Below are positions 11,586 to 43,241 of a stretch of DNA of 64,000 nt, piece by piece. Position numbers and translations under genes: made by a program. Numbering within the stretch: the stretch's first letter is position 1; the number at the start of each line of letters is the position of its first letter. The notes below the pieces were generated by a model. The model ran no database searches and had not been told where the DNA came from. It saw nothing but the letters and a program-made list of their open reading frames with translations. The DNA comes from Bordetella parapertussis (GTDB taxonomy: Bacteria; Pseudomonadota; Gammaproteobacteria; Burkholderiales; Casimicrobiaceae): contig CALQLA020000007.1 in NCBI GenBank assembly GCA_943331295.2, forward strand, positions 1 to 64,000. Reading direction: 5' to 3'.

Positions 11586-11589
11586 ACGA

Positions 11590-11898: not shown

Positions 11899-11951
11899 CC
11901 CTGTCCTGAGTCAAGGCTTCGGCACATTCGGCGGCGGTGCCTCCGAGACGC

Positions 11952-13990: not shown

Positions 13991-14034
13991 CCGCAGTTCT
14001 GGTCGCCAGCGGGGCGAATCGAGGGAGAGCGCTT

Positions 14035-14625: not shown

Positions 14626-14652
14626 CCGGGACCGCCGCGCGCGGTCAGGCCC
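14618..14652. terminator. Bidirectional hairpin between convergent genes
   Basis: A perfect 11-bp inverted repeat, GGGCCTGACCG (14618-14628) and CGGTCAGGCCC (14642-14652), encloses a 13-nt loop. It contains the stop codons of both converging genes. It lacks a clear T-run, so it may act as a strong stem rather than a textbook intrinsic terminator. Confidence 0.55.
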
Positions 14653-16233: not shown

Positions 16234-16234
16234 C

Positions 16235-27295: not shown

Positions 27296-28636
27296 CTACA
27301 CCACGTTGAGCGGCGCGAGGTCGCGGGCGATCGCGGCGCGCCGCTCGGCGTCGGGCAGGTCCTTGTGCGCGAGGTAGGCGGCGGCCACCCGGCGCGACGT
27401 CTCGAGGATCAGCGCGCGGTCGTCGCCCGCTCCCTTCGGGATGCGCACGATGGTGTCGCCGGCGAACGTCGGCACGTGGGCGCCCGTGGCTGCCTCGGGT
27501 CGCGCCGGCTCGATGCCCTGCTGCAGGTTCCGGATGCCCTTGCGCAGCGCCGCGCGCAAGAGCCGGATGCCGGCGTCGGTGACGCCCAGGTGCTCGCGCT
27601 GGTGGCTGTTGATGGGCCCCTGGCTCACCCACGCGTCCCAGTCGCCGGGCGTGGCCTGGCGCTGCTCGTAGGGCCGGTCGGCGCTCTGGCCGTAGAAGTC
27701 GACGGTGCCCCAGCCGATCTCGTCGCGCCTGGTGCGCCCCTCGGGATCGTCCAGCTGGTTCACGTTGCGCCAGGCGATCACCCAGGTGTTGGCGTCGTCG
27801 ATCGGGACGACCCAGCGCGTGAGGCTCGAGCGGCCGAAATAGCGGATGCCGTCGCCGCGCTCGAACAGCGCGCCGTTCTGCGAGAAGTTCGGCAGGAAGT
27901 GGTCGTGCACGCGCACCCAGATGTTGTCGCCGGCGCGGCGCGCGTTGGTGTAGAAGAAGCCGTAGTCGCGCTCGTGCCAATCGGGAACCGGCAGCTCGCC
28001 CCACGAATCCTCGAACTGCACGCCCGACATCCGCGTGTGCAGGAACGGCGTGTGGTACGGGTCCATCGAGTTCTCGCTGACCTGCAGCCAGTTGCACGGC
28101 GAATGGATCTGCCAGGGCACCATCTCGTTGCCGGGCAGGTCCATCACGTCGAGGTGCGGGAACGCGGGCTTGAACTCCGGCGGCCCCATGTAGGTGAAGA
28201 TCAGGTCGCGGTATTCCAGCACCGGGTAGGCCCCCTGGCACACGCGCTCCTTCAGCGGGCTGTTCGCGGGCTCGGCGGGCAGCTCGAGGATCCGCCCGTC
28301 GGTGCCGTAGCGCCAGCCGTGATACGAGCAGCGGATGCCGTGGTTGGCGATGATGCCGAACTCGAGCGACATGCCGCGATGGCTGCAATGCTTGTGGACC
28401 AGGCCCAGGTCGCCCGACAGGTCGCGGAACAGCACGAGGTCCTCGCCCAGGATGCGCACGGCGAGCGGCCTGTCGGCGAGGCGCTCCGACATGGTCACCG
28501 GATGCCAGAAGCGCCGCAGGTACTCGCCGCAGGGCGTGCCCGGCCCGACCTTCGACAGCTCGTCGTCGACCGGGCGCTCCCGCGGCTTGTAGTAGCCGCC
28601 GTAGGGTTCGTTGCCGATCCGGGGTGCGTCGCTCAT
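27296..28636 (-). CDS. Rieske aromatic-ring-hydroxylating oxygenase, alpha subunit (copy A)
   Basis: This 446-residue oxygenase subunit is of the phthalate/vanillate-oxygenase type. Rieske [2Fe-2S] ligands are Cys84, His86 (HCSHRG), Cys103 and His106 (CSYHGW). The mononuclear iron site is in ENSMDPYHTPFLH, with His195 and His200 and the bridging Asp192. It should hydroxylate or demethylate a (hetero)aromatic acid, with electrons from a separate reductase. None is adjacent; the nearest is the VanB-type protein at 44282-45232. A strong AAGGAG precedes the ATG. It lies at the 3-prime end of a tight six-gene operon. Confidence 0.93.
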   Translation of the reverse strand: MSDAPRIGNEPYGGYYKPRERPVDDELSKVGPGTPCGEYLRRFWHPVTMSERLADRPLAVRILGEDLVLFRDLSGDLGLVHKHCSHRGMSLEFGIIANHGIRCSYHGWRYGTDGRILELPAEPANSPLKERVCQGAYPVLEYRDLIFTYMGPPEFKPAFPHLDVMDLPGNEMVPWQIHSPCNWLQVSENSMDPYHTPFLHTRMSGVQFEDSWGELPVPDWHERDYGFFYTNARRAGDNIWVRVHDHFLPNFSQNGALFERGDGIRYFGRSSLTRWVVPIDDANTWVIAWRNVNQLDDPEGRTRRDEIGWGTVDFYGQSADRPYEQRQATPGDWDAWVSQGPINSHQREHLGVTDAGIRLLRAALRKGIRNLQQGIEPARPEAATGAHVPTFAGDTIVRIPKGAGDDRALILETSRRVAAAYLAHKDLPDAERRAAIARDLAPLNVV

Positions 28637-28681
28637 CGTCGTCTCCTTGTTGGGTTCGCGGATTGCGCCAGGCGCGCTCCC

Positions 28682-29704
28682 TCAGCCGGCGAGCAGCCGG
28701 GAGAGGGCATCGTTCAGGAATTTCGCGTCGGCCGGATTGCCGGCCGGGTTGCCCGCGCGATGGCCCCAGATCGACGGGATCGGCAGCAGCTGGGCATTGG
28801 GCATCAGCGCCACCTCGCGCCGGTTGTCCTCGACGGTGAAGTAGAGGTCGGTCTCGCTGGGCATGACGAAGGCGCGCGCGCGGATCGCTGCGAGCGCCCG
28901 CGGGAAGTCGCCTCCATAGAGCGGGTTGGCGCTGGCGTCGGCGTGCTGCCAGGTCCAGATGTGCGCGAGCAGGTTGTTCGCGTCGCGGCGCAGGAAATTG
29001 CCTTCCCACGACGCGACCAGGAAATCCTCGAGCGACGAGAAGCCGGCGCCGCGCCAGAGCTCATCGCGATAGAACGCCTGCGACAGTGCCCAGCCCGCGT
29101 ACACGCGGCCCATCGCGCGCAGGCCACGGTCGGGCCGGCCCGAGAACCAGCCGTCCTGGAAATTGGCGTCGGCGGTCAGCGCCGCCTTCACGCCCTCGAG
29201 GAACACGAAGTTGTGCGGCGAGCAGCGCGCGGCGCCGCAGGACACGCCGATGCGCTTCACCATGTCCGGGTAGAGCGCGGCCCAGTGATAGGCCTGCAGG
29301 CCGCCCATCGACCAGCCGTAGACGAGCTCGAGCCGCTCGATGCCGAGCACCTCGGTGACGAGCCGGTGCTGGACCCGCACGTTGTCGCAGATGGTGAAAT
29401 TCGGATAGCGCCGGCGGTCGAACGGCGGCGGCGTGTTCGAAGGCGACGACGACAGGCCGTTGCCGAACAGGTTGGGGATGATGATGAAGTACCGCTGCGG
29501 GTCGAGCGCCATGCCGGGGCCGATCATGAACTCGATGTCGGCGTGCTGCGCGCCGAACGGCGTGCAGTAGACGATCGCGTTGCTGCGGTCCGCGTTGAGC
29601 GTGCCGTAGGTCTTGTAAGCGAGCTTCGCGCCGCGGTACGTGAGGCCGGACTGCAGCGCGACGTTGCCGGCGTCGTAGAGCGTGTGGTCGGGTTGCTTGT
29701 CCAT
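28682..29704 (-). CDS. MetX-like alpha/beta-fold hydrolase/acyltransferase (copy A)
   Basis: This 340-residue protein is of the homoserine O-acetyltransferase-like branch, with nucleophile Ser132 (GWSMGG), an acid candidate in SETDLYF and His in IWGHRAG. The [14 protein letters not shown] and [15 protein letters not shown] segments are typical. No methionine-biosynthesis gene is nearby, so it is probably a hydrolase acting on an ester, amide or ring-cleavage product. It lies between the amidase and Rieske genes in one operon (gaps of 15 and 45 nt). A homologue lies at 33878-34891. Confidence 0.88.
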
Positions 29705-29719
29705 GGGTTCGGCTCGATC

Positions 29720-31003
29720 CTAGGCCGTCGCCAGCGCGCTGTCGACCCACCGCCCGACGGACAGCAGTGCGGCGTCGGCGCCGTGAAGGCCAACGAGCTG
29801 GATGCCGATCGGCAGCCCGGCCGGGCCGCTGCCCGCCGGCACGGCAAGGCAGGGCAGGTGCAGTGCCGTCCACATCCGGCAGAAGAGCGGGTCGCCGGTG
29901 CCGGCGGCGGCCAGCGGCGGCTCGCCGGCCGCGGCGGGCGTGACCAGCGCGTCGCAGCCGGCGAACGCGGCGCGCATCATGGCCGCGGCCTGCGCGACGG
30001 CCGCCTTCGCGGCGACGTAGTCCTCGTGCCGCGTGTGCCAGCCGGTCTCGCAGAACGCGGCGAACGCGGGCGTCACGCCGTCGAGGTGGCGCGTGGTCTC
30101 GAACACGTAGTTGCGCGCGGCCTCGTAAGCCATGATCGTCTTCTGGGCGTCGACCAGCGGCGTGAATTCGGGCGGCAGCACGACGTCGCGCACCGTGGCG
30201 CCGGCGCGCCGCAGCTTCTCGGCGCTCGCGGCGAGGACAGCGTGCACGCTGGCGTCGGCGGCATTCCCCTGCGGGGTGAGGCAGAGCCCGAGCACCGGGG
30301 GCGCCGGCAGCGGGGCGACGACGGCCCGCGCCGGCAGGCCGGCCAGTACCGACGACAGCAGCGCGATGTCGTCCACGCTGCGGGCGAGCACCCCGAGCGT
30401 GTCGAGCGATTCGGCGAACGGCCGGATGCCGGACAGGCTGAAGTCGCCGTAGGTCGGCTTGTAGCCGATGATGCCGCAGAAAGTCGCCGGGCGGATCAGC
30501 GATCCCGCCGTCTGCGAGCCGAAGGCCAGCGGCACCATCCGGTCGGCCACCGCCGCGGCGGAGCCGCTCGACGAGCCGCCGGGCGTGCGCTCGATGTTGT
30601 GGGGGTTGCGCGTCTTGCCCGCGGTGAAGTGCGCGAATTCGGTGGTGACCGTCTTGCCCATCATGATCGCGCCCGCCGCCCGCGCGGCGGCGACGCACGA
30701 GGCATCCCACTGCGGCTGCCGCGTCGCATAGAGCGGCGAGCCCAGGCCGGTGGGCATGTCGGCGGTGTCGATGATGTCCTTGACTGCGATCGGCACGCCG
30801 TGCAGCGCGCCGCGCGACGGTGCGCGGTCGGCCGCGCGCGCCGCGGCCAGCGCGGCGTCGGGGTCGAGGTACTGCCAGGCCTGGACGTCGCGTTCGCGGG
30901 CTTCGATGCGGTCGAGGCAGGCGCGGACGAGCGCCTCCGAGGTCAGCGTGCCGGCGCGGATGCGCGCGGCGGCTTCGGTGGCGGTGAGGTCGTTGGCGGG
31001 CAT
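29720..31003 (-). CDS. Amidase-signature hydrolase (copy A)
   Basis: This 427-residue enzyme has the Ser-cisSer-Lys triad: Lys in GVPIAVKDIIDT (residue about 74), the glycine-serine-rich GGSSSGSAAAVA, and the nucleophile region GSQTAGSLIRPA. It should hydrolyse a carboxamide to acid plus ammonia, or a related C-N bond. I chose ATG 31003 (MPANDLTATEAAARI) because the frame upstream is a shadow of the ThDP gene. It lies 22 nt after the decarboxylase beta-subunit gene in the operon. Confidence 0.9.
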   Translation of the reverse strand: MPANDLTATEAAARIRAGTLTSEALVRACLDRIEARERDVQAWQYLDPDAALAAARAADRAPSRGALHGVPIAVKDIIDTADMPTGLGSPLYATRQPQWDASCVAAARAAGAIMMGKTVTTEFAHFTAGKTRNPHNIERTPGGSSSGSAAAVADRMVPLAFGSQTAGSLIRPATFCGIIGYKPTYGDFSLSGIRPFAESLDTLGVLARSVDDIALLSSVLAGLPARAVVAPLPAPPVLGLCLTPQGNAADASVHAVLAASAEKLRRAGATVRDVVLPPEFTPLVDAQKTIMAYEAARNYVFETTRHLDGVTPAFAAFCETGWHTRHEDYVAAKAAVAQAAAMMRAAFAGCDALVTPAAAGEPPLAAAGTGDPLFCRMWTALHLPCLAVPAGSGPAGLPIGIQLVGLHGADAALLSVGRWVDSALATA

Positions 31004-31025
31004 GGTATCCAGTCGGGGACGAAGG

Positions 31026-31589
31026 TCAGGCCGCGGCGAGCGCGGCGGCGAATTTGCGGCGCAGTTCGGCGCTGTGCAGCAGCGAAAAGTCCTGCGGGTA
31101 GGTCTCGCCGGGAACGACGTGCAGCGCGACGAACACGGGGCCGTCCTCGCGCAGCACGCCGCCGATTTCCGCCGCGAACGTCGCGGCATCGGCGAAGTCG
31201 TGGACGCGGCGGTAGCCGGCGGCGCGCGCGAAGCCCGCGAAGTCGACGCGGCCCGCGCCGGGGATCGGGTGGCCGCCGTTGGCTTCGTAGGTGCCGTTGA
31301 CGCAGACGAAGTGGACGAGATTGCGCGGCGCCGCGCCGGCGATGGTGACGAGGCTGCCGAGGTTCATCAGCAGGCTGCCGTCGCCGTCGAGGACCAGCAC
31401 GCGCTTGTCCGGGCGGCCGAGGGCGAGGCCCAGCGCGTGCGACGACGCCTGGCCCATCGCCCCCACGGCGAGGTAGGTGAGGGCGCCGGGCGCGATCGCC
31501 AGCCACTCGAACGCGGCCTGGTAGACGGGCACGACGATCTCGCCGGCGTAGCGCGTGGCCAGCACCTTCAGGCAGTCGTCGCGGCGCAT
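31026..31589 (-). CDS. Thiamine-diphosphate-dependent decarboxylase, C-terminal (beta) subunit
   Basis: This 187-residue protein carries the pyrophosphate-binding half of a ThDP enzyme, with GDGSLLMNLGSLVTI and VCVNGTYEANGG supplying the GDG...N motif. Together with the preceding N-terminal half it resembles sulfopyruvate (ComDE) or phosphonopyruvate decarboxylases split over two genes. It should decarboxylate a 2-oxo acid to an aldehyde, fitting the aldehyde dehydrogenase in the same operon. ATG 31589 lies 10 nt after the alpha gene; a GTG at 31595 is also possible. Confidence 0.87.
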   Translation of the reverse strand: MRRDDCLKVLATRYAGEIVVPVYQAAFEWLAIAPGALTYLAVGAMGQASSHALGLALGRPDKRVLVLDGDGSLLMNLGSLVTIAGAAPRNLVHFVCVNGTYEANGGHPIPGAGRVDFAGFARAAGYRRVHDFADAATFAAEIGGVLREDGPVFVALHVVPGETYPQDFSLLHSAELRRKFAAALAAA

Positions 31590-31599
31590 CGGCACGCGG

Positions 31600-32139
31600 C
31601 TACTCCGGCGTCCGCGTGACGAGGAACACGAACGGCTTGGCGCGCGCCTGCGCCGCCGCGAACGCCGGGACAATCCGCGCCTCGTCGCCGCGCTGTCCGA
31701 GCCGCGCGTGGTCGATCGCCATCGCGTCCAGCACCGGCTCGACGATGCGCACGCCGTAGTGCCTGGATTGCGGCGGGTCGCGGTCGGGCTCCATGCCCTG
31801 CAGCCCGACGATCGCGCAGAGCCCGAAGCCGTAGTCGACGGCGATCGCGCGCACGGCGTTGAGCGAGTCGAACAGGCCCGTGTGCTGCATCAGCAGCAGT
31901 GCGCGCGTGCCCGTGTACGACAACCCGGCGCAGATCGACACGCCTTCGTCCTCCTTGCACACGCGGATGAGGCGCAGCGCCGGGTCGCGCGAGATCGGCC
32001 ACAGCAGGCGGTCGCTGGTGACGATGTCGGGCAGCGCGACGACGGTGGCGATGCCGGCGGCCTTGACCGCCGCGATGATGTCTGCGCCACGGACGCCGCC
32101 GCCCTCGGTCGCTGTCGTCGCCATCGCCTCCGCCGTCAT
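31600..32139 (-). CDS. Thiamine-diphosphate-dependent decarboxylase, N-terminal (alpha) subunit
   Basis: This 179-residue protein is the pyrimidine-binding half, with the cofactor-activating glutamate in CKEDEGVSICAG (residue about 63) and the following SLNAVRAIAVDYG. The first 15 residues are a low-complexity leader. It forms the active enzyme with the 31026-31589 subunit. It lies 3 nt after the aldehyde dehydrogenase gene. The pair suggests conversion of a 2-oxo acid to an aldehyde that the neighbouring dehydrogenase oxidises. Confidence 0.87.
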   Translation of the reverse strand: MTAEAMATTATEGGGVRGADIIAAVKAAGIATVVALPDIVTSDRLLWPISRDPALRLIRVCKEDEGVSICAGLSYTGTRALLLMQHTGLFDSLNAVRAIAVDYGFGLCAIVGLQGMEPDRDPPQSRHYGVRIVEPVLDAMAIDHARLGQRGDEARIVPAFAAAQARAKPFVFLVTRTPE

Positions 32140-32142
32140 CGT

Positions 32143-33684
32143 CTATGCCGCCGGCGGCGGAAACGGATTGGCGGTGCGTCCCAGCCCCAGCCAGACGCTC
32201 TTGACCTGCTGGAACTCGCGGATCGCCTCGATGCCGTTCTCGCGGCCGTAGCCGCTCATCTTGTAGCCGCCGACCGGCGAGAGCGTGCTCACGCTGCGGT
32301 AGGTGTTCACATACACGGTGCCGGCGGCGATCCGCTCGGCGAGGCGGATGCTGCGCGCCATGTCCTGCGTCCAGACGCCGGCGGCGAGCCCGTAGCGGCT
32401 GTCGTTGGCCAGCGCGAGCGCCTCGTCCTCGTCGGCGAAGCGCATCACGGCAAGCACGGGGCCGAACACCTCCTCGCGCGCGAGTTCCATGTCGGGGCGC
32501 ACGCCGGTGAAGATCGTCGGCTCCACGTACCAGCCGGCGCCGCAGCGGGCGGGATGGATTTCCCTGCCGCCCAGCACGCAGCGCGCGCCGTCGCGCTTGG
32601 CCTGCTCGATGAACGAGAGCACCTTCGCGTGCTGCTCGCGGGTGGCGACGGGGCCGACCTGCGTGGCGGGGTCCTGCGGGTCGCCGATCCGGATGTCGCG
32701 CATCGCGGCGACGAGGCGCTCGAGGAACCGGTCGTGGATGCCGGCCTGCAGCAGCAGCCGCGAGCCCGCGATGCAGGACTGGCCGAGCGACAGGAAGATG
32801 CCGGAGATCACGCCGTTGACCGCGTCGTCGAGGTTGGCGTCGTCGAAGACGATCTGCGGCGACTTGCCGCCCAGTTCCAGCGTCACCCGCTTGAAGTCGG
32901 TGGCGGCCGCGGCGGCGATGCGCCGTCCGCTCGCCTCCGAGCCGGTGAACGTGATCGTCGCCACGTCGGGGTGCGCGACCAGCGGGGCGCCGAGCTCGGG
33001 ACCGAAGCCGGTGACGACGTTGAGAACGCCCGGCGGCAGCCCCGCGTCCTCGACGAGGCGCGCGAATTCGAGCGTCGACGCCGACGCGTGCTCCGAGGGC
33101 TTCAGCACCACCGTGTTGCCGGCGGCGAGCGCGGGGGCGAGCTTCCATGCGGCCAGCATCAGCGGCGAGTTCCACGGCGTGATCGCGACCACGACGCCCA
33201 GCGGCTCGTGCCGCGTGTAGTTGAAGACGTCGGGCACGTCGATCGGGATCACCGCGCCCTCGATCTTGTCGGCGAGACCGGCGTAGTAGTGGAAGTACTT
33301 CGGCAGGTAGCGGAACTGCGCCAGCACCTCGACCAGGCGCTTGCCGTTGTCGCGCGTCTCGATGCCGGCGATCTCGTCGATCCTCGCCTCGAGCACCGTG
33401 GCGATGCGCCGCAGCAGCGCGCCGCGTGCCGTGGGCGTGAGCCCGCGCCAGGCCGGCGCCGCGAACGCCGCGCGGGCGGCGGCCACGGCGCGGTCGGCGT
33501 CTTCCGCCCGGCCGCGCGGGATCAGTGCCCAGGCTTCACCGGTCGCGGGGTTCGCCGTCTCGAACCACTCGCCGCCTACAGGGTCGCACCAGCGCCCTCC
33601 GACGAAGTTGCGATAGCGGCGCAGCGCCGGGGCGGCGGGCGCCGCGGCATCGGCTTCGAGGAAATGCGGCGTGTCGTCGGGCAT
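32143..33684 (-). CDS. Aldehyde dehydrogenase, first gene of the Rieske operon
   Basis: This 513-residue NAD(P)-dependent enzyme has TPWNSPLM in the cofactor region, the catalytic glutamate in LELGGKSPQ and the catalytic cysteine in GQSCIAGSR. The C-terminal NTYRSVSTLSPVGGYKMSGYG is complete. Its start is GTG-ATG at 33687/33684; I chose the ATG. No strong Shine-Dalgarno is visible. It precedes the split decarboxylase, probably oxidising the aldehyde that enzyme releases, and heads the operon that ends with the Rieske oxygenase. Confidence 0.9.
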   Translation of the reverse strand: MPDDTPHFLEADAAAPAAPALRRYRNFVGGRWCDPVGGEWFETANPATGEAWALIPRGRAEDADRAVAAARAAFAAPAWRGLTPTARGALLRRIATVLEARIDEIAGIETRDNGKRLVEVLAQFRYLPKYFHYYAGLADKIEGAVIPIDVPDVFNYTRHEPLGVVVAITPWNSPLMLAAWKLAPALAAGNTVVLKPSEHASASTLEFARLVEDAGLPPGVLNVVTGFGPELGAPLVAHPDVATITFTGSEASGRRIAAAAATDFKRVTLELGGKSPQIVFDDANLDDAVNGVISGIFLSLGQSCIAGSRLLLQAGIHDRFLERLVAAMRDIRIGDPQDPATQVGPVATREQHAKVLSFIEQAKRDGARCVLGGREIHPARCGAGWYVEPTIFTGVRPDMELAREEVFGPVLAVMRFADEDEALALANDSRYGLAAGVWTQDMARSIRLAERIAAGTVYVNTYRSVSTLSPVGGYKMSGYGRENGIEAIREFQQVKSVWLGLGRTANPFPPPAA

Positions 33685-33877
33685 CACGGGTCGGCAACGG
33701 GCCGCGCGGAGCGCGCGTCCGGATGATTATTTCCAAGAACAATAAGTTACTATTATGCACATCTTTCGGCGCCGAATCCCGCGCCGAATGCGCCGCAGCG
33801 CGACGGCTTGCCGCCCGGTGCCATCCGCCGGAGCGGCCCCGTTGCCGTGCAGCGCCCACCGGATCGGGAGGCAAGGC
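33685..33877. promoter_or_regulatory. AT-rich divergent control region of the first Rieske cluster
   Basis: This gap of about 190 nt contains an AT-rich core at 33721-33765. It includes ATAAGTTACTATTAT (33742-33756), whose outer arms ATAA/TTAT are symmetric. TATTAT at 33751-33756 is a possible -10 element for the plus-strand gene. The core AAGTTACTA resembles AGTTTACTA at 43348-43355 upstream of the second cluster. A shared regulator is possible. Only sequence resemblance supports this. Confidence 0.45.
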
Positions 33878-34891
33878 TTGGACGACGGCGACATCTTCGA
33901 CTTGGGCGACGTGGTGCTGCAGTCGGGCGCCACGCTGCACGGCGCGCGGATCGCGTACCGGACGCACGGGCGGCTCGATGCGGCCGGGACGAACGCCATC
34001 CTCGTCCCGACGTTCTACGGCGGGCGGCACGCCGACTACGACGGCATGATCGGGCCGTCGCACGCGCTCGACCCGTCGCGCTACTTCATCGTGGTCGTCG
34101 ACATGCTGGGCAACGGCCTGTCGTCGTCGCCGTCGAACACGCCGGTGCCGTGGAACGGCCCGCGCTTCCCGCGGGTCACGCACTGGGACAACGTGCACTG
34201 CCAGCACCGGCTCCTGACGGGGCACCTCGGCGTGCGGCGGCTGGCGCTTGCCACCGGCTTCTCGATGGGCGGCCAGCAGGCCAACCACTGGGCGGCGATC
34301 TTCCCCGGCATGGTCGAGCGGCTGGCCCCCTGGTGCGCGTCGGCGAAGACGGCGCCGCACAACTGGGTGTTCCTCGAGGGGGTGAAGGCGGCGCTGCTGG
34401 CCGACCGCGGCTTCGACGGCGGCGACTACGCGACGCCGCCGACGCGCGGCATCCGCGCCTTCGCCCGCGTGTGGGCGGGCTGGGGGCCGTCGCAGGCGTT
34501 CTACCGGAACGCGCTGTACCGCGAGCTGGGGCACAGCACGCCCGACGACCACATGACCGCGTTCTGGGAGGCGAACTTCCTGCAGTTCGACGCCAACGAC
34601 CTGCTCGCGATGCTCGACACGTGGCAGCGCTCCGACATCAGCGACAACCCCGTCCATCGCGGCGACTACGCGGCGGCGCTCGCGGCCATCACCGCGCGCA
34701 CGCTGCTGCTGCCGGGCGCGACCGACCTCTACTTCCCGGTCGCCGACAACGAGCAGCAGGCGCGGGGGATGCGCGACGCCGAAGTGCGCCCGATCCCGTC
34801 CGACTGGGGGCACATCGCCGGCGCGCCGGGGCTCCACGCGCCGGACGTCGCGTTCCTCGACGCGGCGCTCGCCGAACTCCTCGCCCGCTGA
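33878..34891 (+). CDS. MetX-like alpha/beta-fold hydrolase/acyltransferase (copy B)
   Basis: This 337-residue homologue of the 28682-29704 protein has nucleophile Ser129 (TGFSMGG), an acid candidate in GATDLYFP and His in DWGHIAG. It shares [12 protein letters not shown] and [12 protein letters not shown]-type segments with copy A. I chose TTG 33878 because GGGAGGC precedes it and the ATG at 33755 would add a basic leader inside the promoter region. It opens a divergent operon with the acetamidase and HbpS-like genes. Confidence 0.85.
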   Translation: MDDGDIFDLGDVVLQSGATLHGARIAYRTHGRLDAAGTNAILVPTFYGGRHADYDGMIGPSHALDPSRYFIVVVDMLGNGLSSSPSNTPVPWNGPRFPRVTHWDNVHCQHRLLTGHLGVRRLALATGFSMGGQQANHWAAIFPGMVERLAPWCASAKTAPHNWVFLEGVKAALLADRGFDGGDYATPPTRGIRAFARVWAGWGPSQAFYRNALYRELGHSTPDDHMTAFWEANFLQFDANDLLAMLDTWQRSDISDNPVHRGDYAAALAAITARTLLLPGATDLYFPVADNEQQARGMRDAEVRPIPSDWGHIAGAPGLHAPDVAFLDAALAELLAR

Positions 34892-34916: not shown

Positions 34917-35861
34917 ATGGACATTTCGCGCATCGCGCCGCTCGACCGGGGACAGGTGATCAGGAAGGGCACGCTGAAGTACGCGTTCGCGGCGACCGAC
35001 TCGTTCACGTCCGAAGTCGAGCACGGCGAGATCTTCGAGGTCGAGACCGAGCTCAACATCGGCGGCCACCTGATCACGTCACTCGACGAGAAGCTCGCCG
35101 AGAAGGACGTCACGCTGCCCTTCGTGAACCCGGCGACGGGCCCCGTCCGCGTCAAGGGCGCGAAGCCGGGCGACATGATCGTCGTCAAGGTGATCAACGT
35201 CGGCGTCCACGGCCTGGGCTACACCGCGCTGTGGCCGGGCATCGGCATCTTTCCCGACTGGGTGCGCAAGCGCGAGTGGGGCATCCAGAACCACACGGTG
35301 AAGGTCGAGGACGGCATCGTCCACTGGAGCGACGCGCTGAAACTCGAGGCGAAGCCGATGGTCGGCGTGATCGGCGTCGCCCCGGTCGCGGGCGGCGTGA
35401 TCACCATCGACAACGGCACGCACGGCGGCAACCTCGACGTGCAGGAGGTCTGCAACGGCAGCCTGATCGCATTCCGGGTCTGGCACGAGGGCGCCTACCT
35501 GTACTTCGGCGACGTCCACGCGCTGCAGGGCGACGGCGAGGTCAACGGGATGGGCGCGATCGAGATCCGCGGCCACCTGCGCTGCCAGGTGTTCGTGCTG
35601 CCGGCGGACCGGAAGCTCAACTGGCCGCGGATCGAGACCGCCACCCACATCTGCACGCTGGGCTGCGCCCGGCCGCTCGACGACGCGCTGCGGATCGCGT
35701 TCGAGGAGATGATCTACTGGCTGGAGGCCGACTACGGCTTCTCGCCGAGCGACGCGTACATGCTGCTGGGGCAGATCGCCGAGGCGCGCTGCACGCAGAT
35801 GGTGAACCCCAAGTACACGTACATCTGCAAGGTGGACAAGCGCTACCTGCGGCGGCGGTAG
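34917..35861 (+). CDS. Acetamidase/formamidase family amidohydrolase
   Basis: This 314-residue cytoplasmic enzyme of the FmdA_AmdA family hydrolyses short amides such as formamide or acetamide. Family motifs include NPATGPVRVKGAKPGD, HTVKVEDGIVHW, MVGVIGVAP, NGTHGGNLDVQEV and YFGDVHALQGDGEVNG. The last stretch contains the metal-coordinating GD-x-H. CAGGAG precedes ATG 34917. It lies 25 nt after MetX-like copy B, so it is probably cotranscribed with it. It could release ammonia from a small amide produced by the pathway. Confidence 0.92.
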   Translation: MDISRIAPLDRGQVIRKGTLKYAFAATDSFTSEVEHGEIFEVETELNIGGHLITSLDEKLAEKDVTLPFVNPATGPVRVKGAKPGDMIVVKVINVGVHGLGYTALWPGIGIFPDWVRKREWGIQNHTVKVEDGIVHWSDALKLEAKPMVGVIGVAPVAGGVITIDNGTHGGNLDVQEVCNGSLIAFRVWHEGAYLYFGDVHALQGDGEVNGMGAIEIRGHLRCQVFVLPADRKLNWPRIETATHICTLGCARPLDDALRIAFEEMIYWLEADYGFSPSDAYMLLGQIAEARCTQMVNPKYTYICKVDKRYLRRR

Positions 35862-35915: not shown

Positions 35916-36341
35916 ATGAACGATGCCCTGATCCCCGTGATGAAGCTCTCGTACGCCGCGGCGGCGCGGATACTGGCCGCCGCCGTCGCGAAGGCCGATG
36001 CGATGCAGGTCCCGCAGTGCATCGCGATCATGGACACCGGTGGCGGCCTCGTCGCCTACGCGCGCACCGACGGCGCGGCGGCGCTGGCCGGCGGGCCGGC
36101 GCTGCGCAAGGCGCAGGTGTCGGCCGAGCGGCGGCACCCGTCCGGCGCGCTGCCGAAGGAGTACGAGCTGGGCGTGGGGCTCGCGACCGACGGCCACTAC
36201 ACCAACCTGTCGGGCGGGCTGCCGATCGTCATCGACGGCCACCACGTCGGCGGCATCGGCGTGAGCTCGGGGTCGGGCGACGAGGATCTCGAGGTGGCGC
36301 GGACCGGCCTCGCGGCGATCGGTGCGAAGTCGACCTGGTAG
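35916..36341 (+). CDS. GlcG/HbpS family (DUF336) protein
   Basis: This 141-residue protein has the DUF336 pattern: SYAAAARILAAAVAKADAM, CIAIMDTGGGLVAYARTDGA, GGLPIVIDGHHVGGIGVSSGSGDED. Members bind haem, cobalamin-like ligands or act in catabolic operons, mostly without a known reaction. The stop codon TAG at 36339-36341 is itself the first three bases of a REP-like repeat. It ends the divergent operon of MetX copy B. Confidence 0.85.
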   Translation: MNDALIPVMKLSYAAAARILAAAVAKADAMQVPQCIAIMDTGGGLVAYARTDGAAALAGGPALRKAQVSAERRHPSGALPKEYELGVGLATDGHYTNLSGGLPIVIDGHHVGGIGVSSGSGDEDLEVARTGLAAIGAKSTW

Positions 36342-36458: not shown

Positions 36459-37076
36459 CTACCCCCGCATCCACGACTCCGCGAAATACAGGAACGCGGT
36501 GGTCGTCTCGAGCCCCGCCTGCACGCGCGGTTGCGGCGTCCCCGGCAGCGCGCGGCCGTTGACGAGGATCGCCGCGCGCCGCGCCTCCACCAGCAGGCTG
36601 AACATCGTGTGCTCGCGCGTGCCGGACAGCGCCGGTGGCACCTCGATGGCCGTCGGGCGACCGAGGTCCTCCCACACCAGTTCGACGGCGAGGTCGCCGC
36701 TCGCGACCGTCTCGACGTAGCGCGCGCCGCGCGGGTCGCCGCGCGTCGCCGCGTGCGTCAGCGGCAGGTAGGTCATCGCGCCGTACGCGGGCGACTCGCC
36801 GAACGGGCCGAACTTGCCGACGAAGTCGCGCATCAGCATCCGCGCGAGCGCCGTGTTGTCGGTGATCACCACGTTGTTGGCGGCCGGGTAGCCGATCGCG
36901 GCATCGGGCGCCTCGTAGAGCATCAGCGCGGTGCCGCGGCCCTGTGGCGACCACGCGACGCGGAAGAACAGCGCCAGCGCCGACCACGGGCCGTCGGGGC
37001 GCTCCTTCAGCATGATGCCGGGGTTCTCGCCGGTCCAGTCGACGCGGCCGGGATGGAGGGGGATGCCGATGGGCAT
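36459..37076 (-). CDS. Unrecognised protein, member B of a tandem homologous pair
   Basis: This 205-residue soluble protein is related over its whole length to the product of 37127-37759. Shared features are an acidic-turn motif ENPGIMLKE, the segment SPQGRGTALML, VITDNTALARML and a C-terminal TTAFLYFAESW. I do not recognise the family. It is the last gene of the operon headed by the second Rieske oxygenase and carrying the Pot-type transporter, so it may process or bind the imported substrate. ATG 37076 begins MPIGIPLHPG. Confidence 0.7.
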   Translation of the reverse strand: MPIGIPLHPGRVDWTGENPGIMLKERPDGPWSALALFFRVAWSPQGRGTALMLYEAPDAAIGYPAANNVVITDNTALARMLMRDFVGKFGPFGESPAYGAMTYLPLTHAATRGDPRGARYVETVASGDLAVELVWEDLGRPTAIEVPPALSGTREHTMFSLLVEARRAAILVNGRALPGTPQPRVQAGLETTTAFLYFAESWMRG

Positions 37077-37124: not shown

Positions 37125-37145
37125 GGTCAGGCCCCGGGCCTGACC
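37125..37145. other. Perfect 21-nt palindrome between the tandem paralogues
   Basis: GGTCAGGCCC-C-GGGCCTGACC spans 37125-37145, covering the stop codon of the first paralogue (37127-37129). As RNA it would form a stable stem with a minimal loop between two cotranscribed genes. It may tune downstream expression. Its left arm resembles the right arm of the hairpin at 14642-14652. Confidence 0.6.
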
Positions 37146-37759
37146 CACGTTTCCGAGAACGCGAGGAACGCGGTGCTGATCGTGCGGCCGAAGAGCTGCC
37201 GGCTCGCGACCTGCCCGCTCAGTGCCGTGCCGTCCAGCGTCACGCTCGCTGCCTTCGCCTCGATGAAGATGCTGTACATCTGGTGCGTGCCGGTGGCCGA
37301 CTGCTCCGGGTTCACCTCGACCGCGAACGGCTCGCCCAGCGCGTCCCACGCCATCTCGGCGACAAGGTCGCCGCTCTCGACGGTCTCGACGTGGCGGCTG
37401 CGCGGGTCGCCGGTGGTGCGCGCGGCGGTGAGCGGCAGGAACCGCGCCGCCTTGAGTCCCGACTTGCCGCGGAACGTCGGCATGTTGACGACGAAATTGT
37501 CGATCAGGTAGCGGCCCAGCGCCTGGTTGTCGGTGATGAACAGGTTCGGCGCATCCGGCCAGCCGCGCCCGTTCTCGGGGTCGCCCAGGATCAGCATCGC
37601 GGTGCCGCGGCCGTGCGGCGACAGCACGACCTTGAAGAACAGCGACAGCGCGGTGAACGGGCCGTCCGCCGCGTGCTTCAGGTAAATGCCCGGGTTGTCG
37701 CCGGACCATTCGACGACTCCGGGGTTGATCGGCACGCGCTCGGCCACGCTCGTCTCCAT
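37127..37759 (-). CDS. Unrecognised protein, member A of a tandem homologous pair
   Basis: This 210-residue protein begins METSVAERVPINPGV and carries DNPGIYLKH, SPHGRGTAMLI, FITDNQALGRYL, SGDLVAEMAWDALG and a C-terminal STAFLAFSETW, all echoed in the next gene. No signal peptide or membrane segment is seen. The family is unknown to me. It follows the Pot-type ATPase gene by 32 nt. The duplication in one operon suggests a heterodimer or divergence of specificity. Confidence 0.7.
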   Translation of the reverse strand: METSVAERVPINPGVVEWSGDNPGIYLKHAADGPFTALSLFFKVVLSPHGRGTAMLILGDPENGRGWPDAPNLFITDNQALGRYLIDNFVVNMPTFRGKSGLKAARFLPLTAARTTGDPRSRHVETVESGDLVAEMAWDALGEPFAVEVNPEQSATGTHQMYSIFIEAKAASVTLDGTALSGQVASRQLFGRTISTAFLAFSETWVRPGA

Positions 37760-37791: not shown

Positions 37792-38868
37792 TCAGTGGGT
37801 GAGGACGGTGCCGCGCGTCGCGGGCCAGCTCACCGTTACCGCGGTGCCGGGCTCCTCCATCGGGTGGTCCGGGCGGACCTCGACGCTGACGCTCTGGCCG
37901 CCGTCGAGCGCGACGTCGATGTGCACGAGGTTGCCCGAGAACGTGCGACCGCGCACCCGGCCCGTCAGTGCATTCTCGTGCGTCGCCGCGCCGTTCGCGG
38001 GCGCCGCCGTCGGACGGACGGCGAGATGCTGCGGCCGCAGCCCCACGGTCACCGCGCCGGTCGCCTCCCGCGCCCCGGGCAGCTTCAGCCGGACGCCGTT
38101 GATCTCGACCACCGTGTGCGCGCCGTCGCGACCGGCGGCGGTGCCGTCGAGCAGGTTGATCTGGCCGATGAAGTCCGCGACGAAGCGCGTCACCGGGCGA
38201 TCGTAGATTTCCTCCGCGCTGCCCATCTGCTCGATCCGGCCGTCGTTCATCACGACGATCCGGTCGGACATGTGCATCGCCTCGGTCTGGTCGTGCGTGA
38301 CGTACACGGTCGTGGTGCCGAGCCGCTGCTGGATCTGCCGGATCTCGGTCTGCATCGCCTCGCGCAGCTTCAAGTCCAGCGCGCCCAGCGGCTCGTCCAT
38401 CAGCAGCACGCGCGGCGAGTAGGCGACGGCGCGGGCCACCGCGATGCGCTGCTGCTGGCCGCCGGAGAGCTCCGGCGGATAGCGGTGCTCGACGCTGGAC
38501 AACTGCACGAGCTCGAGGAGTTCCTTCACCCGCTTGCCGATCGCGACCTTGTCCACGCGCCGCTCGGTGAGGCCGAACGCGATGTTCTCGCCGATGGTCA
38601 TGTGCGGGAACAGCGCGTAGTCCTGGAACACCATGCCGATGCCGCGCTTGTTCGGCGGCAGCCGTGTGACGTCCTCGTCGCCGAGGTAGACGGTGCCGGA
38701 GGTCGGCAGCACGAACCCTGCGATCATCCGCAGCGTGGTCGTCTTGCCGCACCCCGACGGGCCCAGCAGCGTGAGGAACTCGCCCTCGCGGATGTCGAGG
38801 TCGATGCCGCGCACCGCGACGGCGTCGCCATAGCGCTTCGTGACTTGCTTCAGGGCGACGCGTGACAC
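37792..38868 (-). CDS. PotA-like ABC transporter ATP-binding protein
   Basis: This 358-residue ATPase has Walker A GPSGCGKTT (about 36-44), signature LSGGQQQRIAVARAV, Walker B VLLMDEPLGALD and His in VTHDQTEAM. It ends in a TOBE domain (about 275-350) typical of spermidine/putrescine- and iron-type importers. The start is GTG at 38868 (VSRVALKQV). It lies 40 nt after the receptor gene, with a strong hairpin in between. Confidence 0.92.
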   Translation of the reverse strand: MSRVALKQVTKRYGDAVAVRGIDLDIREGEFLTLLGPSGCGKTTTLRMIAGFVLPTSGTVYLGDEDVTRLPPNKRGIGMVFQDYALFPHMTIGENIAFGLTERRVDKVAIGKRVKELLELVQLSSVEHRYPPELSGGQQQRIAVARAVAYSPRVLLMDEPLGALDLKLREAMQTEIRQIQQRLGTTTVYVTHDQTEAMHMSDRIVVMNDGRIEQMGSAEEIYDRPVTRFVADFIGQINLLDGTAAGRDGAHTVVEINGVRLKLPGAREATGAVTVGLRPQHLAVRPTAAPANGAATHENALTGRVRGRTFSGNLVHIDVALDGGQSVSVEVRPDHPMEEPGTAVTVSWPATRGTVLTH

Positions 38869-38901: not shown

Positions 38902-38926
38902 CGCGCGGTCAGCGGCTGACCGCGCG
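38902..38926. other. 11-bp hairpin spanning the receptor stop codon
   Basis: CGCGCGGTCAG (38902-38912) and CTGACCGCGCG (38916-38926) form a perfect stem with the 3-nt loop CGG. It overlaps the stop codon of the PotD-like gene, between it and the ATPase gene on the same strand. Such a stem could protect the upstream receptor mRNA or partly stop transcription, favouring excess receptor over ATPase. Confidence 0.65.
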
Positions 38927-40003
38927 GTTCCACTGGTCGTACCAGCTGTTGACGTTGACGCCCTTGTAGTCGACGCGCAGCATCCGGTCGATGTCGGCGG
39001 GCTCGATGTTGTTGAGCGAGACGAACACCGGGTCCTCGGTGCGCAGCCGCGTCATCGCCTTCTTGTTGACGGGCCACACGCCGCTGTTCTTCGCGAACGC
39101 GATCTGGAACTCCTCGTCGAGGTAGGCGTTGATGAACGCCATCGCCGCGGCCGCGTTCTTCGTGCCCTTGACGACGCCGAGCCAGCCCACCTTCATCACG
39201 CCGACCTTGGTGGCGTTGATCCTCGGATGCGCGGCGGCCACGTTGGCGCCCGCATACTTGATCGAGCGCAGGCACCAGCCCGAGTGGGCGACCGCGGCGT
39301 AGATGTCGCCGGTCTTGAACGCCGCCACGACGTCGCCGCCGGCCTTCCAGAACTTGACACCCTTGAACGTCTTCAGCGTGTCGAGGCCGGGCTTCACGTT
39401 GTTGACGTCGCCGCCCGACGCGTAGACGATGCCGGCGAAGTTCGCGAGGCCGCCGCCGCCGGTGATGTCGGCGTACATCACGCGGTTCGCCAGCTTGTCG
39501 TTGGCGAGGTCCTTGTACGTCGTGGGCACCGGGATGCCGAGCTCGGCGAACTTGCCCTTGTCGTAGCAGATCACTTCCTGCGTCGTCCAGTTGCCGATCG
39601 CGTTGGGCGTGCGCTGCCACGGCTCGATCTGCGCGGCGTTGGGGATCGCGCTGTAGTCGAGCGGCAGCAGCAGGCCCGCGTCGACGACCTGGTCGACCTG
39701 CGCGTCGAGGATCTCGACGACGTCGAACGGCACCTCGCGGCCGCGCGCGGCGATGATCTTGGCGAGGTTGTCCTGCGGGCTGCCGATGACGAACTCGACC
39801 TTGCCGCCCAGCGCCTCGATCTTCGGCGCGACGAACTTGGCGAGGTCGTCGCGCCAGGGGCCGCCGAACGTCGCGACGCGCAGCGTCACGCCGTCGAACG
39901 GCTTGGCCTGCGCCTGCGCGCCCTGGGCGAACACGAGCGCGGACATCGCGATCACCGCGCCGGCCAGCGGCGTGCGGCAGCTTTTCCAGAGTCTGTTGTT
40001 CAT
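38909..40003 (-). CDS. PotD-like ABC transporter periplasmic substrate-binding protein
   Basis: This 364-residue receptor has a Sec signal peptide (residues 1-32, hydrophobic AGAVIAMSALVFA, cleavage near GAQAQA). The mature domain starts with LRVATFGGPWRD and carries FDVVEILDAQVDQV and the family segment KGTKNAAAAMAFINAYLD. It belongs to the spermidine/putrescine-type SBP family 8 group, whose ligands range from polyamines to organic acids. The ligand is not evident. The permeases precede it in the operon. Confidence 0.9.
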   Translation of the reverse strand: MNNRLWKSCRTPLAGAVIAMSALVFAQGAQAQAKPFDGVTLRVATFGGPWRDDLAKFVAPKIEALGGKVEFVIGSPQDNLAKIIAARGREVPFDVVEILDAQVDQVVDAGLLLPLDYSAIPNAAQIEPWQRTPNAIGNWTTQEVICYDKGKFAELGIPVPTTYKDLANDKLANRVMYADITGGGGLANFAGIVYASGGDVNNVKPGLDTLKTFKGVKFWKAGGDVVAAFKTGDIYAAVAHSGWCLRSIKYAGANVAAAHPRINATKVGVMKVGWLGVVKGTKNAAAAMAFINAYLDEEFQIAFAKNSGVWPVNKKAMTRLRTEDPVFVSLNNIEPADIDRMLRVDYKGVNVNSWYDQWNRAVSR

Positions 40004-40100: not shown

Positions 40101-40985
40101 TTACCGGCTCGACCTTGCGACGGTGTCGAGCCCGATGACACGCTGCACCAGCAGCAGCAGCCCGAGCGAGAACAGGATCACCAGCGATGCGGAGGCGAGC
40201 ACCGACGGATTGAAGTCCGTTTCGATGCCGAAGAACAGCTCGACCGGGTAGGTGAGGAACCCGGGCGCGGTCAGGAACATCGCGATCGGCACGTCGGAAA
40301 ACGACACCATGAACGCATACAGCGCCCCGGCGTGGACGCCAGGCATGATCGTCGGCAGCGTGATCCGGCGGAACGTCCGCCACGGGCTCGCCCCCATGCT
40401 GAGGGCAGCCTCCTCGAGGCGCAGGTTGAACCGCTGCAGCACCGACACCACGGTGCCGATCACGTAGGGGGTCGCGACGAACAGGTGCCCCAGGTAGAGG
40501 CCGACGAACGTCGCGTTGAGGAACAGCCCGGTGGCGTCGCCGACCACGTAGTAGAGCTTGAGGAACGCGACGCCGGTGACGACCGCCGGAATCTGCATCG
40601 GCGCCCGGAACAACGCGAGGAACAGCGACTTGCCGGGCAGCCTGCCGCGGACCACGGCGAGCGCGGCGGGAATGCCCAGCAGGCAGGCGCCGGTGGCCAC
40701 CGCGACGGCGAGCGCCAGCGACAGCCCCAGCGCGCGGAAGTGCGCCGCCGGGATCTGCCAATACCACTTGAGCGTCAGCTCCTGCGGCGGGAACACGACG
40801 CTCGAATACGCGGTGGTGCCGTCGAGCGACGAGCCGATGACCACCGCCATCGGCGCCAGCAGGAACACGTAGGCCCACGTCACCCACGCGTACTTGGCCA
40901 CGGCGCCGAGCGTCGGCCGGCGCCACCGGCGCGCCGGGGCCGGGGCCAGTGCCACGGCCCCGGCGGTGGCGTCGTTGGTCGTCAT
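40101..40985 (-). CDS. PotC-like ABC transporter permease
   Basis: This 294-residue membrane protein has six hydrophobic segments starting at about residue 35 and the EAA loop EEAALSMGASPWRTFRRITLP near residue 195. The N-terminal 25 residues are an Ala/Pro-rich cytoplasmic leader. ATG 40985 overlaps the stop of the preceding permease gene (ATGA), which fixes the start. It forms a heterodimer with the 40982-41836 protein. Confidence 0.9.
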   Translation of the reverse strand: MTTNDATAGAVALAPAPARRWRRPTLGAVAKYAWVTWAYVFLLAPMAVVIGSSLDGTTAYSSVVFPPQELTLKWYWQIPAAHFRALGLSLALAVAVATGACLLGIPAALAVVRGRLPGKSLFLALFRAPMQIPAVVTGVAFLKLYYVVGDATGLFLNATFVGLYLGHLFVATPYVIGTVVSVLQRFNLRLEEAALSMGASPWRTFRRITLPTIMPGVHAGALYAFMVSFSDVPIAMFLTAPGFLTYPVELFFGIETDFNPSVLASASLVILFSLGLLLLVQRVIGLDTVARSSR

Positions 40986-41836
40986 GCGATCACCAGCCGC
41001 GCCGCGCGCAGGCGCTTCACGAGGAACACCGAGACCAGGTTGATCAGGACCACGGCGACCAGCAGCACCGCCGCCAGCGTCGCGCCCATCCCGTACTTGG
41101 TCTCGATGATCACCGAGCGCTGGATCAGCACCGGCAGCGTGAACACGCGGCCACCGCCCAAGAGCGACGCCGACGTGAACGCGCCCATGCACATGTTGAA
41201 CATCATCAGCGCGCCGACGATCACGCCGGGCAGCGACAGCGGCAGGATGACGCGCCAGAACACGCGGAAGCGCCCCGCGCCGTGGACCGTCGCGGCCTCC
41301 TCGAGCGACGTGGGGATCGTCCGCACGACGCTGTAGAGCAGCAGCACGGCGAAGCCCATCGTGAACTGCATCAGGCCGATGACGACACCGGTGGCGTTGC
41401 CGATGATCGTGTACGGCTTGTCGACGAGGCCCAGCGCCAGCATCAGCTTGTTGAGCCCGCCGTCGGCGGAGAAGATCACGATCAGGCCGTAGACCTTGAT
41501 CACGATCGTGACGAACGACGACACGACGACGCCGGCCAGCATCAGCATCGCCCAGCGCGAGCGCATCCGGGCGATCACGTAGGCGACCGGGAAGCTCATC
41601 AGCAGCGTGCAGAACGTGGCGATCGCCGACACCTTGACGGTGAGCCACAGCGCATTGAGGTAGAACTCGTCGGTGAAGAGCGCCTGGTAGTTGGCGAGGC
41701 TCATCGTCGGCGACAGCATCCCGAGCCCGAGGTCGGCGGACAGGCTGCCGCGCAGGAACGTGAGTTGCGAGCCGGCGAGCAGCACGAAGCTGACGACGAA
41801 CGACGGGACCAGCAGCCGGTCCCAGCGGATGTTCAT
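40982..41836 (-). CDS. PotB-like ABC transporter permease
   Basis: This 284-residue membrane protein has six hydrophobic segments and the EAA loop LEEAATVHGAGRFRVFWRVILP near residue 185. Start ATG 41836 (MNIRWDRLLVPSFVV) is 25 nt after the Rieske stop; the frame upstream of it is a shadow of the oxygenase gene. Its overlap with the following permease gene suggests coupled synthesis. Confidence 0.9.
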   Translation of the reverse strand: MNIRWDRLLVPSFVVSFVLLAGSQLTFLRGSLSADLGLGMLSPTMSLANYQALFTDEFYLNALWLTVKVSAIATFCTLLMSFPVAYVIARMRSRWAMLMLAGVVVSSFVTIVIKVYGLIVIFSADGGLNKLMLALGLVDKPYTIIGNATGVVIGLMQFTMGFAVLLLYSVVRTIPTSLEEAATVHGAGRFRVFWRVILPLSLPGVIVGALMMFNMCMGAFTSASLLGGGRVFTLPVLIQRSVIIETKYGMGATLAAVLLVAVVLINLVSVFLVKRLRAARLVIA

Positions 41837-41861: not shown

Positions 41862-43241
41862 TCATCCGGCAGCGAACCGCGGGTTGCGGCGCAGGTCGCG
41901 CAGGCCGTGCTCGATGAACTCGCGCCGCGCCGTGCCGCCCAGCGCATCGCCGGCGCGGACGACGTCCATGACGGCCTTCGCCAGCGCCTTCATCAGCGCC
42001 GCGTCCTCCTCGGGCGGGCGCGGGCGGAATGGCATCACGGTGTCCTGCACGTAGGTCGCGACCTCGCCGTCGACCTCGGGCAGCCGCGGCGGTTCGCCGC
42101 CGGAGCGCACCGCCTTGATGCCGTTCCGGATGTTCCGCCGCAGCATCGCGACGCCGCGGTCGGTGGTGCCGAGGTTCTCGGCCGCGTGCGTCGCCATCGG
42201 GCCGATCGACACCTGCGCCTCGTAGTCGCTGGGATCGCGCTGCATCACGTCGTAGGAGCGAAGCTCGGTCTGGCCGTCGAAGTCCACGGTCTGCAGACCC
42301 ACCAGCTCGCGCTTGCCGCGCTGGTGCGGGTCGATACCCGGGCCGAAGCTGCGGTAGGCGATGATCATGCAGTGGGTGTCGTCGATCGCCACGGTCCACT
42401 TGGTGATGCTGGCGCGCTTGAAGTACTTCTCCTCCTCGGCGTCCTCCCAGAAGGCGCCGACCTGGCTGAAGCTGGGGTACGTGGTCTCCTGCGTGCGCAC
42501 CCAGATCATGTCCTTCCACCGGTAGGTCAGCGTCGCGTAGACGCGCGCTGGCGTCTCGTGGAACTCGAGCAGCGGCATCACCTGCCACGCGGCCTCGAAC
42601 TGGAACCGGTTGAGGCGCGAGTGCAGGAACACCGTGTGCACCGGGTCCATCGTGTTCTCGCACACCTGCAGCCAGTTGCACGGGTAGACGATCTTGTACG
42701 GCACGAGCTCGGTGCCGGGCAGGCCGGCCATCGTGTCGTACAGCGGGAACGGCGGCATCGACGCCGCGGGGCCGAGGTAGGCGAACAGCAGCCCGTGCCA
42801 CTCGACGACCGGGTAGGCGCCGTGGCAGGTGCGCTCCTTGATCCTGGAGCCGGCCGGCTCGCCGGGCGTGTCGAGGATGGTGCCGTCGACGTCGTAGTGC
42901 CAGCCGTGGTAGCAGCAGCGGATGCCGTGGTCGGCGATGAAGCCGAACTCGAGCGACGTGTTGCGGTGGCTGCAGTGCAGGTGGAGGAGGCCGTAGTCGC
43001 CCGAGAGGTCACGGAACGCGACGAGGTCCTCGCCCAGGATGCGCAGGCGCACCGGCACGCCCTTGTGCAGTTCCTCGGTCATGCACACCGGCTGCCAGAA
43101 CCGGCGCAGGTACTCGCCGCAGGGCTTGCCGGGGCCGACGCGCATGAACTCCGGGTCGGGCTCGGGCCGTTCGTTCTTGTCGTATCCGACGTAGCGGCCG
43201 CGTGGCGCGATGATGCCGGGCTTGCGCTCGCTGCTGTCCAA
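41862..43241 (-). CDS. Rieske aromatic-ring-hydroxylating oxygenase, alpha subunit (copy B)
   Basis: This 459-residue oxygenase subunit is homologous to copy A at 27296. Rieske ligands are Cys90, His92 (HCSHRN), Cys109 and His112 (CCYHGW). The iron site is in ENTMDPVHTVFLH, with Asp199, His202 and His207. Runs such as CGEYLRRFW, RILGEDLV and FRDLSGD are shared with copy A. It starts with TTG at 43241, preceded by AGGAGG. It heads the operon with the Pot-type importer, so the imported compound is probably its substrate or precursor. The VanB-type reductase gene lies divergently nearby. Confidence 0.92.
   Translation of the reverse strand: MDSSERKPGIIAPRGRYVGYDKNERPEPDPEFMRVGPGKPCGEYLRRFWQPVCMTEELHKGVPVRLRILGEDLVAFRDLSGDYGLLHLHCSHRNTSLEFGFIADHGIRCCYHGWHYDVDGTILDTPGEPAGSRIKERTCHGAYPVVEWHGLLFAYLGPAASMPPFPLYDTMAGLPGTELVPYKIVYPCNWLQVCENTMDPVHTVFLHSRLNRFQFEAAWQVMPLLEFHETPARVYATLTYRWKDMIWVRTQETTYPSFSQVGAFWEDAEEEKYFKRASITKWTVAIDDTHCMIIAYRSFGPGIDPHQRGKRELVGLQTVDFDGQTELRSYDVMQRDPSDYEAQVSIGPMATHAAENLGTTDRGVAMLRRNIRNGIKAVRSGGEPPRLPEVDGEVATYVQDTVMPFRPRPPEEDAALMKALAKAVMDVVRAGDALGGTARREFIEHGLRDLRRNPRFAAG

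Follow-up and report, generated by a model that had tools for sequence, protein, structure and literature searches.

A locus that encodes a split thiamine diphosphate (ThDP) decarboxylase together with a Rieske oxygenase raises the question of which pathway the two enzymes serve. We addressed this question for a 64,000-nucleotide (nt) stretch of DNA from Bordetella parapertussis (assembly GCA_943331295.2, contig CALQLA020000007.1, positions 1 to 64,000), referred to here as the window. A run of six genes on its minus strand, from 33684 down to 27296 and checked base by base, encodes an aldehyde dehydrogenase (ALDH), the ThDP alpha and beta subunits, an amidase, a hydrolase labelled MetX-like, and a Rieske alpha subunit, with intergenic gaps of 3, 10, 22, 15, and 45 nt in gene order. 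Gene content and spacing had been proposed from the DNA letters alone (the sequence-only reading), and both were borne out by the sequence check, the coding signal, and the family matches. The arrangement is real and conserved and, as far as our searches here show, uncharacterised.

Affiliation of the ThDP pair

The best profile matches of the ThDP pair are ComD, ComE, and phosphonopyruvate decarboxylase (Ppd), and the closest solved structure is annotated as a putative phosphonopyruvate decarboxylase beta subunit. The alpha subunit scores 71 bits against TIGR03845 (equivalog cut-off 148) and the beta subunit 102 bits against TIGR03846 (equivalog cut-off 221). Against the Ppd model TIGR03297 (cut-off 312.5 bits), which describes one chain where the window has two, alpha and beta score 45 and 111 bits, respectively. 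A careful tree was built from 44 rows of concatenated alpha-beta pairs, with LumK/LumL (discussed below) not among the rows, and FastTree was run on a wider set of 139 pairs. In the 44-row tree, ComDE (support 100/100) and Ppd (100/99) form clades distinct from each other, and the window pair falls in a third clade (97/98), whose 30 rows are mostly proteobacterial and in which its neighbor is the pair of a Rhodoferax-like metagenome-assembled genome (locus L031, 72% identity). This tree shows no firm grouping with a characterised aromatic-pathway decarboxylase, the placement that the sequence-only reading had named as speaking against it.

The conserved motifs follow the tree. Rows of the window clade carry (L/V)PDI.T and YE(A/V)N; for ComDE the corresponding motifs are VPCKQL (alpha) and YGSTGDQ (beta), and for Ppd they are VPCS(F/Y)L and HDSTGxQ. 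The features of a split ThDP decarboxylase are present in the window pair, namely the catalytic Glu (KEDEG) on alpha and GDGSLLMNLG...VN on beta, and the beta subunit is single-copy in the window genome. Because the pair lies in a separate clade with its own motifs and retains the catalytic Glu and the ThDP motifs, it is predicted to represent an uncharacterised subfamily of decarboxylase-type ThDP enzymes. The likeness to ComDE and Ppd in the sequence-only reading thus holds at the family level, whereas membership in either group is rejected by the profile cut-offs, the tree, and the motifs. On this evidence, we class the window pair as a distant relative of both and a member of neither.

Recurrence of the pairing with a Rieske oxygenase

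The same reading held that a ComDE/Ppd-like pair is not normally found beside a Rieske oxygenase. This view did not survive a survey of the 80 genome loci nearest by ThDP beta, plus one Ruegeria conchae plasmid: a Rieske orthologue (46–63% identity) lies near the pair in 19 of the 80 loci and on the plasmid, giving 20 loci in which the distance between Rieske and ThDP beta is 0.6–4.6 kb. Moreover, a split ThDP enzyme with a Rieske oxygenase has been published (PMC12746152). Other genes tend to accompany the pair in these 20 loci: 18 have a HisC-like aminotransferase, 16 an AllG-like (DUF1116) protein, 10 an amidase, and 7 an ALDH, and each of the two small proteins described below is present in 15. 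The same partner genes are almost missing from the other surveyed loci, the corresponding Fisher values being inflated by relatedness. In sequence, the window Rieske falls among the betaproteobacterial Rieskes of these clusters (87/88), at up to 63% identity. The operon ALDH is 75% identical to those of L031 and L074, and the operon amidase is 39–52% identical (tblastn) to the cluster amidases of L074, L080, L101, and L148. The pairing recurs in many unrelated proteobacteria and therefore looks less like a peculiarity of one genome than like a real pathway, as yet uncharacterised.

Locus L155, on a Bradyrhizobium guangxiense plasmid (NZ_CP022220), has a remoter ThDP alpha-beta pair with no Rieske gene in its company. 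Its companions are an amidase, an ALDH, an aminotransferase, and a polyamine-type ABC transporter, and this context suggests that several parallel pathways employ this ThDP family.

The putative six-gene operon

In each of the six genes, GC content is 0.93–0.96 at the third and 0.47–0.58 at the second codon position, which is the coding signature of the genome, and Pfam and/or NCBIfam matches agree with the gene names. The label MetX-like proved loose: the hydrolase belongs to NF005757/PRK07581 (513 bits, cut-off 332) and misses the MetX model TIGR01392 (140 bits, cut-off 500). The ALDH, for which GTG at 33687 is an alternative start, reaches the cut-off of none of the NCBIfam models shown. 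The Rieske protein has an intact CxH...CxxH motif from residue 84 and a DPYHTPFLH iron site at residue 192. This D/H/H iron site, the Rieske motif, the lack of an adjacent beta subunit, and a PDR/VanB-type reductase are together the features of an alpha-only Rieske oxygenase with a PDR-type reductase.

Among the six genes, only the Rieske gene is preceded by an obvious Shine-Dalgarno sequence (AAGGAGA). No terminator-like sites were found between 26.8 and 37.9 kb, which fits an operon, short of proof. The layout suggests that the six genes are transcribed as one unit, which belongs to a larger catabolic locus; our confidence in this, slightly above even, is a joint one for the whole explanation proposed below.

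The surrounding locus

The functional locus probably spans about 27.3–46.7 kb (Table 1). Next to the operon, divergent genes encode a second PRK07581 hydrolase, FmdA, and an HbpS/GlcG-like protein. A Paraburkholderia plasmid (L165) likewise groups genes for FmdA, a heme-binding protein, an amidase, and a PRK07581 hydrolase, and further PRK07581 relatives are set among amidases and urea-type ABC transporters without ThDP genes. Given these contexts, the window seems to combine a ThDP-Rieske module with one for amide utilisation.

Table 1. Features of the locus in the window (positions of the whole stretch)
Feature	Position	Strand	Basis
Alpha-only Rieske non-haem iron oxygenase, last operon gene	27296–28636	-	PF00355 + PF19301
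PRK07581-family alpha/beta hydrolase (MetX-like)	28682–29704	-	NF005757 513 bits, cut-off 332; GWSMG
Amidase-signature (AS) amidase	29720–31003	-	PF01425; GGSSSGS motif
ThDP decarboxylase beta, PP domain	31026–31589	-	PF02775; TIGR03846 102 bits; GDG...N ThDP motif
ThDP decarboxylase alpha, PYR domain	31600–32139	-	TIGR03845 71 bits, motifs (catalytic Glu in KEDEG), tree
NAD(P)-type ALDH, operon gene 1	32143–33684	-	PF00171 592 bits
Second PRK07581 hydrolase, divergent to operon	33755–34891	+	NF005757 456 bits; start uncertain, likely internal
Acetamidase/formamidase (FmdA)	34917–35861	+	PF03069
HbpS/GlcG-like haem-binding family protein	35916–36341	+	PF03928
Small protein C10, unnamed family	36459–37076	-	No Pfam/NCBIfam match; relatives in 15 of 20 Rieske loci
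Small protein C7, unnamed family	37127–37759	-	No Pfam/NCBIfam family; confident beta-rich model
Polyamine/opine-type ABC transporter ATPase	37792–38868	-	TIGR01187 371 bits, cut-off 355.6
ABC transporter solute-binding protein	38909–40003	-	PF13416
Two ABC transporter permeases	40101–40985, 40982–41836	-	Similarity to L037/L075/L101/L102 pairs
Second alpha-only Rieske oxygenase	41862–43241	-	PF00355 + PF19301; 51% identical to first
Short-chain dehydrogenase/reductase (SDR)	43437–44159	+	Reading frame and sequence, assigned by eye
Rieske reductase, PDR/VanB type	44282–45232	+	PF00111
Second AS amidase, AtzE-like (below cut-off)	45241–46641	-	PF01425 295 bits

The small proteins C10 and C7 are paralogues (47% identity). 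The AlphaFold model of C7 is of high quality (predicted local distance difference test 93.7, predicted template-modelling score 0.89) and has no significant match in the PDB, so the fold may be undescribed. C7 family members occur in 18 of 300 Burkholderiales genomes; C7 was rejected as a pathway marker because the contexts inspected among these 18 genomes lack the ThDP pair and the Rieske gene.

Several upstream genes have relatives at other ThDP loci. Permease pairs with 51–57% identity adjoin the ThDP pair in L037, L075, L101, and L102, and a relative of the solute-binding protein (45%) lies beside the Rieske gene and the ThDP pair in L101. The PDR/VanB reductase is 65% identical to an L031 protein next to the ALDH-ThDP genes and is the sole match in the window genome at E<=1e-20; it is likely the electron donor of both oxygenases. 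The second amidase has a counterpart in L031 that adjoins the reductase and ALDH genes (63%), and as this match is a mere 81-residue fragment, the support is weak.

Just past the second amidase, a three-domain full-length ThDP enzyme (TPP_enzyme_N/M/C) is encoded at 46962–48716 on the plus strand, so that the region holds both split and fused ThDP enzymes. Separate catabolic-looking genes lie at 9271–17479 and encode enolase-superfamily, EthD-domain, and thiolase-like proteins and a class III CoA-transferase.

Proposed pathway and alternatives

The most likely explanation, in which as a whole we have a little more than even confidence, is that the locus serves the breakdown of a nitrogenous, possibly N-methylated, compound via a 2-oxo acid and an aldehyde. 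We infer the reactions, their order, and the amine released. The adjacent ABC transporter would import the nitrogen-containing compound, which the alpha-only Rieske oxygenase, with electrons from the PDR-type reductase, would hydroxylate or dealkylate. The amidase and the PRK07581 hydrolase or hydrolases may cut amide or ester bonds to release ammonia or methylamine. The ThDP alpha-beta enzyme, with Glu on alpha and the diphosphate-binding GDG on beta, would decarboxylate a 2-oxo acid to an aldehyde, which the ALDH would oxidise to a carboxylate. In relatives, the 2-oxo acid would arise from an amino acid through the HisC-like aminotransferase, and the products of the N-methylglutamate-pathway genes would use up the methylamine.

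The methylamine link comes from gene neighborhoods. GmaS/MgsA/MgsB-like genes adjoin the ThDP genes in L031, and GmaS/MgsABC-like genes do so in L074 (Mgs names assigned by eye). The window genome has N-methylglutamate-pathway orthologues with 78 and 87% identity on another contig, C9, where genes of the SoxA and SoxB families come next, and the GmaS-type protein of this genome scores as a type III glutamate-ammonia ligase. On this contig, a GmaS/Mgs-like operon followed by regulators and SoxA/SoxB-type genes occupies about 36–47.5 kb (L162 8100–19526). The GmaS/Mgs gene order on C9 is the order found beside the ThDP-Rieske cluster in L074, and in several marine relatives the cluster itself includes SoxA/SoxB-type genes. 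These observations suggest, short of proof, that an N-methylated amine is released by the pathway.

Several points weigh against the proposed pathway. Evidence for the link to methylamine is limited to gene adjacency in two loci and to genes that, in the window genome, lie on a separate contig. AllG was not found in that genome, and its best match to the aminotransferase of the clusters is only 36% identical, so its pathway differs from that of the relatives. No convincing counterpart of PRK07581, FmdA, or HbpS was found beside the other ThDP loci surveyed, and these proteins may therefore serve a different substrate. To our knowledge, no enzyme of the window ThDP clade has a demonstrated substrate. 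The window version is a variant without the aminotransferase and AllG and with an extra amide-utilisation module.

More tentatively, and with clearly less confidence, the clusters may represent a widespread undescribed pathway of marine and soil Proteobacteria for an N-methylated or N-heterocyclic amino acid, for example of the methylhistidine type. Transamination, split-ThDP decarboxylation, and ALDH would shorten the side chain, the Rieske oxygenase and the two small proteins would open or demethylate the nitrogenous part, and the amidase/AllG would free methylamine for the N-methylglutamate pathway; the window would hold a variant joined to the amide-utilisation module. No matching described cluster for homarine, trigonelline, or methylhistidine as substrate was found in literature searches.

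We also considered a chance merger of two unrelated modules. One would consist of the ALDH and ThDP genes and the other, for amide utilisation, of the amidase, PRK07581, FmdA, and HbpS genes; the Rieske gene could belong to either. The PRK07581 relatives in amide/urea clusters without ThDP genes would fit such a merger, as would the lack of PRK07581 and FmdA counterparts in the ThDP loci surveyed. However, the amidase, the ALDH, the Rieske oxygenase, and both small proteins have relatives in ThDP-Rieske clusters, and a PRK07581 hydrolase is placed inside the tight operon, so we regard this explanation as unlikely. Somewhat less probable still is that the pair is a heterocyclic-acid decarboxylase like LumK/LumL, taking CO2 off an N-heteroaromatic carboxylate before Rieske attack in the degradation of a quinoxaline- or pyridine-type N-heterocycle. 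In favor of this, the genes for the two subunits of the ThDP decarboxylase LumK/LumL share a cluster with those for a Rieske dioxygenase, amide hydrolases, and transporters (PMC12746152). Yet the P450, the xanthine-oxidase-type enzyme, the extradiol dioxygenase, and the alpha-beta Rieske of the lum cluster were not found among the window genes scanned, which do not comprise every open reading frame, and the window Rieske is alpha-only; moreover, the relatives' aminotransferase could supply a 2-oxo acid, and an ALDH suits an aldehyde product. Very improbable, despite the top profile matches and the closest structure, is the view implied by the sequence-only reading, in which the pair decarboxylates sulfopyruvate or phosphonopyruvate within an organosulfonate or phosphonate pathway that acquired a Rieske oxygenase, since all equivalog cut-offs are missed by wide margins, the tree and motifs disagree, and neither the SDR, alcohol dehydrogenase, and hydroxyacid oxidase genes of plasmid ComDE loci nor the phosphoenolpyruvate (PEP) mutase gene of Ppd loci is in the operon.

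If the proposed catabolic pathway is correct, a large clade of ThDP pairs remote from ComDE and Ppd would consist of catabolic decarboxylases partnered with Rieske oxygenases, perhaps tying a nitrogen compound to methylamine use. One candidate cluster, with WP_260026948 and WP_260026946 as the ThDP pair, is in Ruegeria conchae, a cultured marine species in which growth screening could reveal the substrate.

Comparison with known systems

ComDE shares with the window pair the split PYR/PP architecture, the ThDP motifs, and distant homology, but differs in its separate clade, its conserved motifs, and its neighbors, and the window scores stay under the equivalog cut-offs. AepY/Ppd belongs to the same ThDP superfamily branch, but is a fused single chain in a separate clade with PEP mutase alongside; no PEP mutase was found among the genes identified around the operon.

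In the lumichrome catabolism of Nocardioides simplex (ATCC 6946), which involves LumK/LumL and LumA-D, the split decarboxylase LumK/LumL acts before a Rieske dioxygenase, and the authors of that study call two-subunit ThDP decarboxylases rare (PMC12746152). As in the window, a two-subunit ThDP decarboxylase (about 20 + 23 kDa) occurs in one catabolic cluster with a Rieske oxygenase and amide hydrolases, whereas the lum Rieske is an alpha-beta enzyme with a ferredoxin and a reductase, and the cluster also includes a P450, a xanthine oxidase, and an extradiol dioxygenase (PMC12746152). LumK/LumL and the window pair are likened here by description and gene company, not by sequence.

The nearest Rieske found with a likely known function is on a plasmid of Methylibium petroleiphilum PM1 (42% identity to the operon Rieske), and the window reductase is 47% identical to a PDR/VanB reductase on the same plasmid. 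The tert-butyl alcohol hydroxylase of PM1 and its reductase are Mpe_B0555/B0554 (PMC4517660). From position, gene order, and a nearby B12-dependent mutase gene set, we infer that the plasmid Rieske and reductase are this pair. As the nearest Rieske is thus likely a tert-butyl alcohol hydroxylase, an aromatic substrate should not be assumed for the window. Both systems combine an alpha-only Rieske with a PDR/VanB reductase, but the genes beside Mpe_B0555/B0554 include neither a split ThDP pair nor an amidase or aminotransferase, and the PM1 enzyme acts on a tertiary alcohol.

Although it has an aminotransferase, DUF1116/AllG, an AstE-like deacylase, and Sox-type genes and is without the PRK07581 hydrolase and FmdA, the uncharacterised cluster on the Ruegeria conchae plasmid NZ_CP081104 shares with the window the Rieske oxygenase, the ALDH, the amidase, ThDP alpha and beta, and both small proteins.

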